Shown here: one piece after another, positions 50,918-53,618 of the stretch
Layout of the letters: the number at the start of each line of letters is the position of its first letter
How positions within the stretch are numbered: the stretch's first letter is position 1
From: Prochlorococcus marinus str. MIT 9211
GTDB taxonomy: Bacteria > Cyanobacteriota > Cyanobacteriia > PCC-6307 > Cyanobiaceae
Direction: 5' to 3'
Assembly (NCBI RefSeq): GCF_000018585.1
Contig: NC_009976.1
Location: forward strand, 1,481,941-1,545,940
Length of the DNA: 64,000 nucleotides
Program-made: the position numbers and the translations under genes
The notes under the pieces: model-generated
What the model saw: the letters and a program-made list of their open reading frames with translations, nothing else
Database searches by the model: none
Told to the model about the DNA's origin: nothing

Positions 50918-52159
50918 TTAACTCCTTACTAATAATTCTAAAGCAAATTGTGCTAAAGCTGCACTTCCACCATGCGCGCCCATTCTCTTTACTCCTTGCA
51001 AAGATAACTGTTCGCGAAATGAGTCATTGCGAAGCAGCACCTCAACTGATTCGGCTAAATGTTTGGAATTTCTACAAGGAAAGACAGCTCCACCTAGCAG
51101 GCGAGCCTGACGCATTGCAAATGATTTTTTAAATTGTGGACCTTTACCTGGCAATGAAACACAAGGAGTACCAAGTCCTACTAATTGCTCAGTAGCAGTG
51201 CCTGCATTTGCAAGGCCAATCTCAGCATAAGTGGCCCACTCATGAAATTTTCCAATACCAATAAAAACCCTAAATCGATCCTTCTGCCAAAAGGTATCTA
51301 CACCTAATGAATTGTTTTGCAAACAAAATTTCGAAAAGCCTAATTTCTCTAAACATAGCTCAAGCTCATGTAGAGATGGGTCTGCCCCAGTAGTAACCAA
51401 AATTGCTAATGGTGTTGGACTTTTAATTTGCAAAGCTGCAGATATTAATCTTCGAAAATTCATCAATGCCTCTGGCATTCTACTTCCACAAAGCAATAAC
51501 AATCTTCTAAACATTAATAAGTCTTGTGGACATTCAGCTTTATGAAAACCATCCATCATTGGATTGCCTGGAGCAAAAGCCCTAATTGACTTCCGCTGTA
51601 AACCTCTAGCAGTCAACTTATCTCTAACTCCTACAAATTTACATCTTAAAGATCTCATCAAAACCCATTCCCAAGGGTCCCATTCTGAGCCTTTGCAGCG
51701 ATGATAATAATCACTCAACAAAGCCCCTGAAGATGATGTCCATGTGTAATCGCTTTTGGGAGTCCCAATAAACCCATACATACCGCCACCACTCCAGGCA
51801 AAAAACAAAGGCAACAAATCCCCAACTGCAAGAATCACTTTCCCATGTAATGCAGATCGTCTGACATACCGCCAATGCTTATAAGCAAAACAAAAGACAC
51901 CTGCAGAAATATCTCGAATCAATCCTGAAAAGCTTTGATTACTAAATCCTCCACTAGGCAAGCGAAAAGAAGGTCCTATTTTGATTAACCACTTTTCATA
52001 AACTGCCTTTTCAAAAGCCTTACCTTCTCCAACCAAAGGGAGTACCTCAAAGGTTAAGCTTGGTTCCAAGAGATGTAGAGCCTCTAAAATCCTAAGGGCT
52101 ATAAGATCTTCACCGTGTCCATTAGAAAGAACTAAAAGATCTTTGGTCGTCTGACTGAT
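50918..52159 (-). CDS. Lipid-A-disaccharide-synthase-like glycosyltransferase (LpxB-related), start uncertain
   Basis: A GT-B-fold protein of the cyanobacterial group annotated as lipid-A-disaccharide synthase-related. Core: LLVLSNGHGEDLIALRILEAL at the N-terminus, GDLLPLFFAWSGGGMYGFIGT in the middle, and donor-side AEIGLANAGTATEQLVGLGTPCVSLPGKGP (in part) near the C-terminus. The frame is open to an ATG at 52333, but codons 22-47 of that version are the antisense of a tRNA-Cys gene, so it is unlikely. Between the tRNA and the conserved core there is no ATG, GTG or TTG; an ATC at 52157-52159 stands seven codons before LLVLSN and is my tentative start. Confidence 0.82.
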   Translation of the reverse strand: MSQTTKDLLVLSNGHGEDLIALRILEALHLLEPSLTFEVLPLVGEGKAFEKAVYEKWLIKIGPSFRLPSGGFSNQSFSGLIRDISAGVFCFAYKHWRYVRRSALHGKVILAVGDLLPLFFAWSGGGMYGFIGTPKSDYTWTSSSGALLSDYYHRCKGSEWDPWEWVLMRSLRCKFVGVRDKLTARGLQRKSIRAFAPGNPMMDGFHKAECPQDLLMFRRLLLLCGSRMPEALMNFRRLISAALQIKSPTPLAILVTTGADPSLHELELCLEKLGFSKFCLQNNSLGVDTFWQKDRFRVFIGIGKFHEWATYAEIGLANAGTATEQLVGLGTPCVSLPGKGPQFKKSFAMRQARLLGGAVFPCRNSKHLAESVEVLLRNDSFREQLSLQGVKRMGAHGGSAALAQFALELLVRS

Positions 52160-52192
52160 ACGATCCCCAGAGGTAAAATCTTTATTTCCTTC

Positions 52193-52263
52193 GGCGGCAT
52201 GGCCAAGTGGTAAGGCAGAGGATTGCAAATCCTTTATCCCCAGTTCGAATCTGGGTGCCGCCT
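52193..52263 (+). tRNA. trnC-GCA: tRNA-Cys (anticodon GCA)
   Basis: Acceptor GGCGGCA pairs with TGCCGCC, discriminator T at 52263 (U73 is the cysteine identity base). D-arm GCCAAGTGGTAAGGC, anticodon loop with TTGCAAA (anticodon GCA), T-arm CCAGTTCGAATCTGG. 71 nt. It is antisense to the open frame extending upstream of the LpxB-like gene. Confidence 0.97.
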
Positions 52264-52378
52264 TCTTACCTTTCTTGAGACCGATTCCTGTAATCAGTTG
52301 CAAGAACTCAATTATTAGATCTCTTTTTCTCATAAAACGGATCTTTTCAGCCCTAAGAACTGGTCGGTAAGTACCTTG

Positions 52379-52567
52379 CTATCGACCATCAGCAGACTTA
52401 CCTTCCTTTAGTGTGCCATTTACAAAACAACTAGCCACCTGAAGAGAATTACCTCGGTAATTATCTGCACTCTGGCTTGTTTCGATATTGCATTTGGTCT
52501 CGTTCTTCTCTGACCAGTCAGTACTCGGAGGATGTCGTAGGGGTTGTTGCCCATTAATTTTGTACAA
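52379..52567 (-). CDS. Doubtful small ORF, 62 residues
   Basis: Reads from a TTG at 52567 and is polar throughout, with two Cys (NETKCNIE, VASCFVNG) and no membrane span. No ribosome-binding site or known family is apparent. It may be chance in a non-coding region; comparison with other strains would decide. Confidence 0.25.
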   Translation of the reverse strand: MYKINGQQPLRHPPSTDWSEKNETKCNIETSQSADNYRGNSLQVASCFVNGTLKEGKSADGR

Positions 52568-52799
52568 GTCTTTATTCCTTCTAAAATAATGGAATATGCT
52601 TTAAATGGTTTTCATTATCCAAAGTCAATCTATAGCAAATAAACTGACTGTGTAGATGTTCTTAGCCTAGTAAAACTAGTAACTTGAATACTTATAAATT
52701 AGCCAATCTTAAAAATTTGAATAAGTAATCATCTACGAAAATATCCCGATCAAAAGTATTCAGTCTTATCCTTACAGGATTATGTTTAACGAGTTTTTA

Positions 52800-52864
52800 A
52801 AGGGCATCTCAATTTCTAGCAGATGCCCTTGAGTCAGGGTAATTGTTGGGGTGCATCCTGACTC
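52800..52864. ncRNA. Tandem perfect hairpins, candidate structured RNA
   Basis: AAGGGCATCT (52800-52809) pairs perfectly with AGATGCCCTT (52821-52830) around an 11-nt loop, and directly after it GAGTCAGG (52831-52838) pairs perfectly with CCTGACTC (52857-52864) around an 18-nt loop. Both orientations are possible; neither is followed by a strong T-run (ATACTTCTTTTCT on plus, TAAAAAC on minus). No known RNA family recognised. Confidence 0.5.
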
Positions 52865-53065
52865 ATACTTCTTTTCTAGGAACAATAGAAATGATCGTCA
52901 GTGAGTAAAAACTCCTGATTTTCAAGTGAATAATCCTGCTATTTTCTGAAAAATCTACATGTAAAGGATTTAATGAGTTTAAATTGCCTATTTCATAAGC
53001 CATTTGCGAAAAATTGTTCCTAATATTTTTCTTGCAGTTGAAATAGCTTTTAAAAAATTGCCAAT

Positions 53066-53123
53066 AAAAAATGGGCGCCCTCAACGAGCAGCGCCCTTAT
53101 GGACAATTGTGTGAGGAGTGTCC
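53066..53123 (-). ncRNA. yfr1-like: Yfr1-like small regulatory RNA
   Basis: Minus strand, starting at 53123: GGACA (53123-53119) pairs with TGTCC (53105-53101), and the loop holds ACTCCTCACAC (53119-53109), the 11-nt ultraconserved core of cyanobacterial Yfr1. Four bases later GGGCGC (53096-53091) pairs with GCGCCC (53078-53073), followed by A and six T (53071-53066), an intrinsic terminator. Predicted length, about 58 nt, is in the Yfr1 range (54-69 nt). Unlike canonical Yfr1, where the core is unpaired between two hairpins, here the core is in the loop of the first. Yfr1 controls porin mRNAs through the CUCC stretch in studied strains. Confidence 0.72.
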
Positions 53124-53129
53124 TTTATC

Positions 53130-53135
53130 ACTATA
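53130..53135 (-). promoter_or_regulatory. -10 box of the Yfr1-like RNA
   Basis: TATAGT on the minus strand; its last base at 53130 is exactly -7 relative to a start at 53123 (GGACAC). A weak -35 candidate TTGGGA lies 19 bases upstream. The fit of box and predicted first stem base supports a real transcription unit. Confidence 0.6.
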
Positions 53136-53197
53136 CCAATCACAAAGAGATTTCTCCCAATTTTTTCTTTTTTGACAAAAAATCATCTGTTTTTTAG

Positions 53198-53216
53198 GAA
53201 TTCAGTATACGAATTC
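53198..53216. repeat. Short dyad of two GAATTC sites around GTATAC
   Basis: GAATTC (53198-53203) and GAATTC (53211-53216) flank AGTATAC, giving a nearly symmetric 19-bp element 75-93 bp upstream of the Yfr1-like start. It may be a protein-binding site or coincidence. Confidence 0.3.
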
Positions 53217-53486
53217 AATAGCCGAAATTAGTTGAAAAATAGGAAAATCCTAGATCAATCTCCCCCAATAAAGCAAGAAGAGATCTCCACTGAGTTGAAT
53301 TCTTATGCTTAGCCTGTCTACATAACGAAAGAAAAATTTCCCTATTGGGTGGCATTCTTAGAAATCATTTTCATAGATCATTGGTCTAGCTAAGATGGAC
53401 TGTCAAAACTAGATAGCTTGAAAATTATTAAGAAGTCTGCGCCTGCATGAAATCATCTTATACAGTTAGGCACCTCCTTATAAATT

Positions 53487-53618
53487 ATGTCGAAAATTAA
53501 ATTTCAGCCTCAAGACAATCTCTATGGTCTTTTTGCTGTAGTTGTTATCTCTGCTTGCATCATTGCTTCACTAGGCGCTCTGCTCGGATATGAGAAAGTA
53601 TTCTTTCCATTTAGCTGA
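53487..53618 (+). CDS. Small single-span membrane protein, 43 residues
   Basis: Translates as MSKIKFQPQDNLYGLFAVVV and continues with a hydrophobic span ISACIIASLGALLG, ending YEKVFFPFS. The polar N-terminus, single helix and aromatic end resemble small photosystem or NDH-1 subunits, but it matches none that I know (not PsbX, PsbY, PsaM, PetN or an Hli protein). It stands alone, with 300 bp upstream for a promoter. The coding look (codon use, clean membrane topology) argues for a real gene. Confidence 0.65.
   Translation: MSKIKFQPQDNLYGLFAVVVISACIIASLGALLGYEKVFFPFS

Follow-up and report, generated by a model that had tools for sequence, protein, structure and literature searches.

The genomes of Prochlorococcus and its relatives are small and encode few regulatory proteins, and RNA regulators therefore matter in these organisms (PMC2518516). 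The Yfr2–Yfr5 RNAs are multi-copy small RNAs (sRNAs) of marine cyanobacteria that end in a 3′ terminator and, in high-light strains, lie beside RNAs carrying the Yfr1 motif (PMC2518516). Yfr1 itself is encoded near guaB/trxA, has its motif between two stem–loops and is described as missing from MIT9211 and SS120 (PMC2190773), whereas Yfr10, detected in SS120, presents the motif in a loop atop a stem (PMC6778093). Yfr103 is a multi-copy non-coding RNA found in marine Synechococcus and in low-light Prochlorococcus strains, among them SS120, NATL1A/2A and MIT9313 (PMC5069720). Low-light Prochlorococcus (NATL2A) also has the sRNAs Yfr106, Yfr107 and Yfr108, for which consensus structures exist (PMC7368042).

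Here we analysed two tandem hairpins in the window, by which we mean the whole 64,000-nucleotide (nt) stretch of DNA under study (C1:1481941–1545940 of a single-contig genome of 1,688,963 bp). Both hairpins are part of a predicted structured RNA element of ~130 nt (125–135) on the minus strand. We consider it likely that this element is a small RNA, a divergent copy in a multi-copy RNA family of marine picocyanobacteria, whose transcription, termination and pairing with targets in trans we infer from sequence comparison. The features of the locus are as follows.

52791–52921, minus strand: the whole predicted RNA element, window copy (own1), delimited by a covariance-model match and by a block kept in two genomes of the same genus.
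52898–52918, minus strand: hairpin A, the predicted 5′ hairpin, TCAGGAGT-TTTT-ACTC-a-CTGA, with 8 predicted pairs.
52866–52897, minus strand: linker with CTAGAAA, a motif conserved in most family members.
52830–52865, minus strand: hairpin B, the second hairpin of the first-pass annotation, with GATGCACCCCAAC in its loop on the putatively transcribed strand (stem scan and pair changes).
52800–52830, minus strand: hairpin C, the first hairpin of that annotation, a terminator-like stem whose U tract is lost in the window copy (stem scan and paralogue tails).
53066–53125, minus strand: Yfr10-like RNA, with ACTCCTCACAC (53109–53119) in the loop of a GGACA/TGTCC stem, after which come a G+C-rich hairpin and T6 (motif scan).

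The first-pass annotation had described two perfect hairpins lying back to back, and the coordinates and the stem and loop sizes hold: positions 52800–52809 pair with 52821–52830 (10 bp, 11-nt loop), and 52831–52838 with 52857–52864 (8 bp, 18-nt loop). A further pair, T52830–A52865, lengthens the second hairpin to 9 bp, and the maximal stems overlap by one base. With a tandem defined as a stem of at least 10 bp beside one of at least 8 bp, loops of at most 18 nt and an offset of at most 2, the window contains one, and none of 150 dinucleotide-preserving shuffles of the window contains any. For the segment 52800–52864, folding gives z = −4.5 (plus strand) and z = −5.65 (minus strand), a stability equalled by none of 200 shuffles on either strand. 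Chance pairing, already judged unlikely by the annotation, is thereby ruled out. The annotation was also right about the distance to the neighbouring RNA (~200 bp, with the 3′ end of that RNA near 53066) and, for the window copy, about the absence of a strong T-run beside the stems.

When 60 genomes, the window's own among them, were searched with 52780–52885, strong matches were found in only two others (G001 and G002; E = 7.8e-24 and 3.6e-23), both of the same genus; the next-best match (E = 0.005) came from a genome that had 34 short matches. A block from ~52796 to 52920 is shared by the window, G001 and G002 at ~86% identity, so that conservation extends beyond the annotated hairpins and reaches ~52921. 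On the minus strand, the predicted order runs from hairpin A (52918–52898) through the linker and hairpin B (52865–52830) to hairpin C (52830–52800). All 8 pairs of hairpin A are intact in the window and G001 and one is broken in G002; this hairpin is weakly kept among paralogues. Extra pairing is predicted within the linker, with weak support and several pairs broken. The loop of hairpin B reads GATGCACCCCAAC in the window, G001 and G002 and differs in other family members.

Compensatory change in homologues, the annotation's own criterion for a functional RNA, is present: a two-sided change in G002 (G–C to A–U) preserves the pairing of helix B on the minus strand, and G001 has a G–U pair in the same helix. 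Three changes across the three genomes affect one side only, with helices A, B and C having one apiece; each gives G–U on the minus strand and A–C on the plus strand. In the window copy, one pair of helix B near the loop shows the opposite, A–C on the minus strand and G–U on the plus strand. The annotation had proposed the loop TTGGGGTGCA as a target-pairing site; in an RNA from the minus strand this loop would read TGCACCCCAA. By eye, the CCAAC of the window loop and the GUUGG of three paralogue loops could form a kissing interaction of only 5 bp.

The 3′ side of the element bears on the claim that simple terminators do not explain the hairpins. In paralogues, hairpin C continues into CCCCCTTTTTT or CCCCCTTCTTCAT, and most have CTTCTTNAT or T6, that is, a U-rich, terminator-like tail, directly after the stem. 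In the window copy the tail is TTTAAAAAC, without a U tract, and in G001 and G002 a T6 lies a few bases past the stem. Because of the U-rich tails of the paralogues and the T6 near the stem in both orthologues, we read hairpin C as a probable terminator whose tail has decayed, and the missing U tract suggests that the window copy may itself be decaying. The claim thus stands for the window copy, where an intrinsic terminator alone was rejected as an explanation for want of a direct U tract, and gives way for the paralogues, in which hairpin C looks like a terminator. The annotation's alternative of an sRNA or the end of one is likewise borne out in part: the two hairpins are best read as a small RNA, or as its 3′ part, within an element of ~130 nt that has a third predicted hairpin upstream.

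We built two covariance models. Model R1, from three sequences (127 positions), matched 74 of 400 genomes of the window's taxonomic family at E ≤ 1; the matches include three further copies in the window's genome and, elsewhere, full-length ones near 30–42 bits. Model R2 was built on a MAFFT alignment of 16 copies from which the window and both orthologues were left out, as were MIT9313-type copies, long-loop copies and one doubtful locus (L208). R2 recovers the window copy with 52.9 bits (E = 1.2e-7 in 229 kb), among 65 sources, and scores the window clade at ~50 bits, far below the training set (~80–160). In the 16-copy alignment, 97.8% of 320 cells are paired and 8 of the 20 pairs have changed on both sides. 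None of 500 shuffles, which leave relatedness in place, reached as high on any of five measures, and sliding the partners by 1–3 columns lowers pairing to 32–51%, a control flattered by the one-row source of the structure. The non-Watson–Crick cells on the modelled strand comprise 7 G–U, 0 A–C and 7 others, and the excess of G–U over A–C therefore supports that strand.

With R2 at E ≤ 0.1, the family was found in 108 of the 400 genomes of the taxonomic family (41 of the 251 good ones) and in 38 of 59 genera. The window's genome has 4 copies, all on the minus strand (C1:1330882, 1351826, 1378929 and 1534731), and the highest count per genome, 8, occurs in a genome of 2,410,873 bp (G095) that we take to be MIT9313. 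In an order-level draw, 19 of 101 genomes matched at E ≤ 0.01; in a class-level draw, 8 of 291 matched, every one within the window's taxonomic family. Among 34 genomes of a Synechococcus-like genus, 14 have a blastn match to one divergent copy or to its flank. MIT9312 and MIT9301 gave weak R2 matches (35.8 and 35.5 bits), and MED4 and MIT9515 none better than E = 0.8; we assume that these genomes are the high-light strains of those names. The multi-genome scans ran with stricter filters, and absences are therefore not firm.

Several loci have features of their own. Five weakly matching loci of high-light type (L251, L252, L254, L255 and L260) share an upstream stretch, TATT(A/T)(T/C)TACCCGAGTA, that resembles a promoter with a start site and that low-light copies do not resemble. 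Within 5.4 kb of one genome (L277, G080:C1:1376000–1381400) lie four element copies and three Yfr1-motif RNAs, two of them near-identical, and one such RNA ends ~15 nt before an element copy. In a genome of 2,510,659 bp (G238), presumably CC9605, two loci (L319 and L320) lie in an RNA-rich intergenic stretch, L320 beside a tRNA-like sequence, where a highly conserved module of 60 nt, comprising a hairpin and a T-run, comes first, then the element and then several further G+C hairpins, each with a T-run; across genomes, 0 to ~600 nt separate the 60-nt module from the element. A phage origin was rejected: blastn searches of 50,697 phage records with two copies found nothing apart from 15 chance-like 29-base matches to Gordonia phages. 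Three scans of viral contigs with exact patterns, a narrow test, gave 0 matches.

An Rfam scan, which the annotation had suggested as a check, returned only 4 tRNAs from the whole window at gathering thresholds. A permissive scan of 52300–53500 gave five matches, all far under their gathering scores; the two orthologue loci gave 3 weak matches, 12 paralogue loci gave 0 at gathering, and one paralogue at E ≤ 10 gave 16 weak matches, none above its own gathering score. Membership in RF01701 (Cyano-1), which we take to be the Yfr2–Yfr5 family, was rejected, with no match in the window at gathering or in 52300–53500 at E ≤ 5; the RF01701 member of this genome is a different sequence elsewhere (C1:1238813–1238880, 52.3 bits). 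The element nevertheless resembles Yfr2–Yfr5 in its multiple copies in marine cyanobacteria, its 3′ terminator-like hairpin and its position beside a Yfr1-motif RNA. Membership among the Yfr1-motif RNAs (Yfr1, Yfr10, Yfr12 and Yfr18) was rejected as well: the element lacks ACUCCUCACAC, although an RNA of that kind directly adjoins it, and the sole exact copy of the motif in the window (53109–53119) lies outside the element. Against the MED4 RNAs Yfr8–Yfr21 listed in Table 1 of PMC2518516, the sole R2 match in the MED4-sized genome (573116–573190, 19.5 bits, E = 2.86) coincides with no listed place. Yfr103 resembles the family in copy number and host range, but by its published description it measures 290–328 nt and has seven paralogues in CC9605 (PMC5069720), as against a ~130-nt core and two loci in the presumed CC9605 genome here, and we lean against identity. 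Yfr106–Yfr108 resemble the element, again by description, as structured sRNAs of low-light Prochlorococcus (PMC7368042). In the open-access papers surveyed, no family of such length and structure is described; the element family may be identical with the published Yfr106–Yfr108 or Yfr103.

As a small RNA, the element would be transcribed from the minus strand, with transcription ending at or just past hairpin C, and would give rise to a stable non-coding RNA, whether transcribed by itself or cut from the 3′ end of a longer transcript. The family probably acts in trans, with the linker and the hairpin B loop as the segments that would pair with target RNAs. With the stems kept across copies and the hairpin B loop varying by clade, the copies could address different targets. 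No clear promoter shared upstream of the element copies was found, and a promoter scan near the window element was uninformative (2 sigma-70-like sites against 3.8 expected).

The main rival holds that the element is a 3′-end module, the structured 3′ untranslated region and terminator common to many genomic-island transcription units, which would end and protect mRNAs without being an independent regulator. The nearest upstream open reading frame (ORF) is codirectional with the element in 34 of 44 loci, and many copies could therefore be mRNA 3′ ends rather than independent genes. Several such ORFs, for example those for 93–123-residue proteins at L222, L226, L192 and L246, end 21–28 nt before the element, and the terminator-like hairpin with its U-rich tail in paralogues fits the same role. 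Yet the upstream ORF is opposed in 10 of the 44 loci, as called by a naive ORF caller; the upstream neighbour of the window copy is not a gene but an RNA with its own terminator-like end; and a terminator needs less than a conserved 5′ hairpin, linker and hairpin B. We regard this explanation as possible, though on the unlikely side.

Returning to the small-RNA reading, the surroundings of its copies are as follows. In the window, a tRNA-Cys (anticodon GCA) lies to the left of the element at 52193–52263 on the plus strand. The longest ORF call there, 50918–52333 on the minus strand, begins upstream of the sequence antisense to this tRNA and then crosses it, and its true start is therefore probably further in. 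When 51 loci selected from those fetched were grouped by blastn of their flanks, the 9 loci of one upstream type had downstream flanks of four types. One downstream type, seen at 12 loci, was combined with three upstream types and four unique upstream flanks, and another, seen at 11 loci, with two upstream types and a single unique flank. The element thus sits at junctions of exchanged neighbourhoods. Homologous recombination between copies is the simplest cause of this exchange; insertion of cassettes beside the element would fit too. An ORF of 60–74 residues (MSLRHPLFHRT... or MFLLHPLFHRT...) begins ~5 nt past the element in 6 of the 44 loci (L222, L234, L235, L240, L242 and L245), and apparent decayed remnants of it follow other copies, including some in the window's genome. 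We raise, only tentatively and as an unlikely reading, that the family is a dispersed set of RNA genes whose copies double as joints for swapping the gene neighbourhoods of islands.

A further rival explanation would make the element a DNA recombination or attachment site that joins island gene cassettes, any transcription being incidental. Both the many-to-many pairing of flanks and the clustering of copies, four within 5 kb in G080, are in keeping with such a site, but the stem changes include G–U and no A–C, which suggests selection on RNA, and the exchange of flanks needs no more than ordinary homologous recombination between repeated RNA genes. By eye, the ends of the element are non-complementary, unlike those of integron attC sites, which have complementary ends with R′/R″ boxes. 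We consider a DNA site improbable.

The neighbouring RNA (53066–53125), which the first-pass annotation had called Yfr1-like, carries the only exact copy of its motif in this genome and is conserved at both orthologous loci. It fits Yfr10 better than Yfr1, because the motif lies in the loop of a predicted stem, as described for the former and not for the latter (PMC6778093, PMC2190773). The strain of the window, MIT9211, is reported to lack Yfr1 (PMC2190773). An ORF for a hydrophobic 43-residue peptide (MSKIKFQPQDNLYGLFAVVV...; 53487–53618, plus strand) lies near this RNA and is conserved at the corresponding position in both same-genus genomes. The element might be a partner or sponge of its neighbour, its AGGAGU pairing with the ACUCCU of the Yfr1-motif RNA much as Yfr2 lies beside Yfr10, whose adjacency and pairing have been published for high-light strains (PMC2518516; PMC6778093). 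The two form a same-strand tandem in the window, G001 and G002; L182 and one copy of L277 are arranged comparably, and both the window copy and its three paralogues contain AGGAGU. However, the predicted duplex with the loop of the neighbour (−8.2 kcal/mol) is equalled by 39% of 300 shuffles, whereas the genome's own Yfr2 scores −16.3 (shuffles 1.3%), and AGGAG is buried in hairpin A, with an unpaired probability of 0.0. An accessible 5′ motif of the Yfr2 type was rejected on these grounds. The exact Yfr1 motif was found in 19 of 338 fetched loci, several of these being one place. Such a partnership thus appears very doubtful.

A short protein-coding gene (37 codons, 52772–52885, minus strand, TTG start), despite a similar 35-codon ORF in G002, is almost certainly not the explanation: a TAA interrupts the 37-residue ORF in G001, loop lengths in the family differ by non-multiples of three, substitutions follow the pairing, and comparison of the window, G001 and G002 revealed no conserved reading frame over the element.

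The preferred reading, a small RNA, would place in these organisms a family with up to 8 copies per genome, present in 108 of 400 genomes, yet without an Rfam match for the copies tested. Should it turn out to be a Yfr RNA already published, its structure, copy number and distribution would be the gain. The covariance model and the list of loci can be used to mine existing RNA-seq data, and the reshuffled flanks allow the influence of repeats on genomic islands to be tested in a concrete case. If the copies do act as joints, RNA regulation would be coupled to genome plasticity, and each exchange would set new genes beside an RNA copy, possibly in one transcript.
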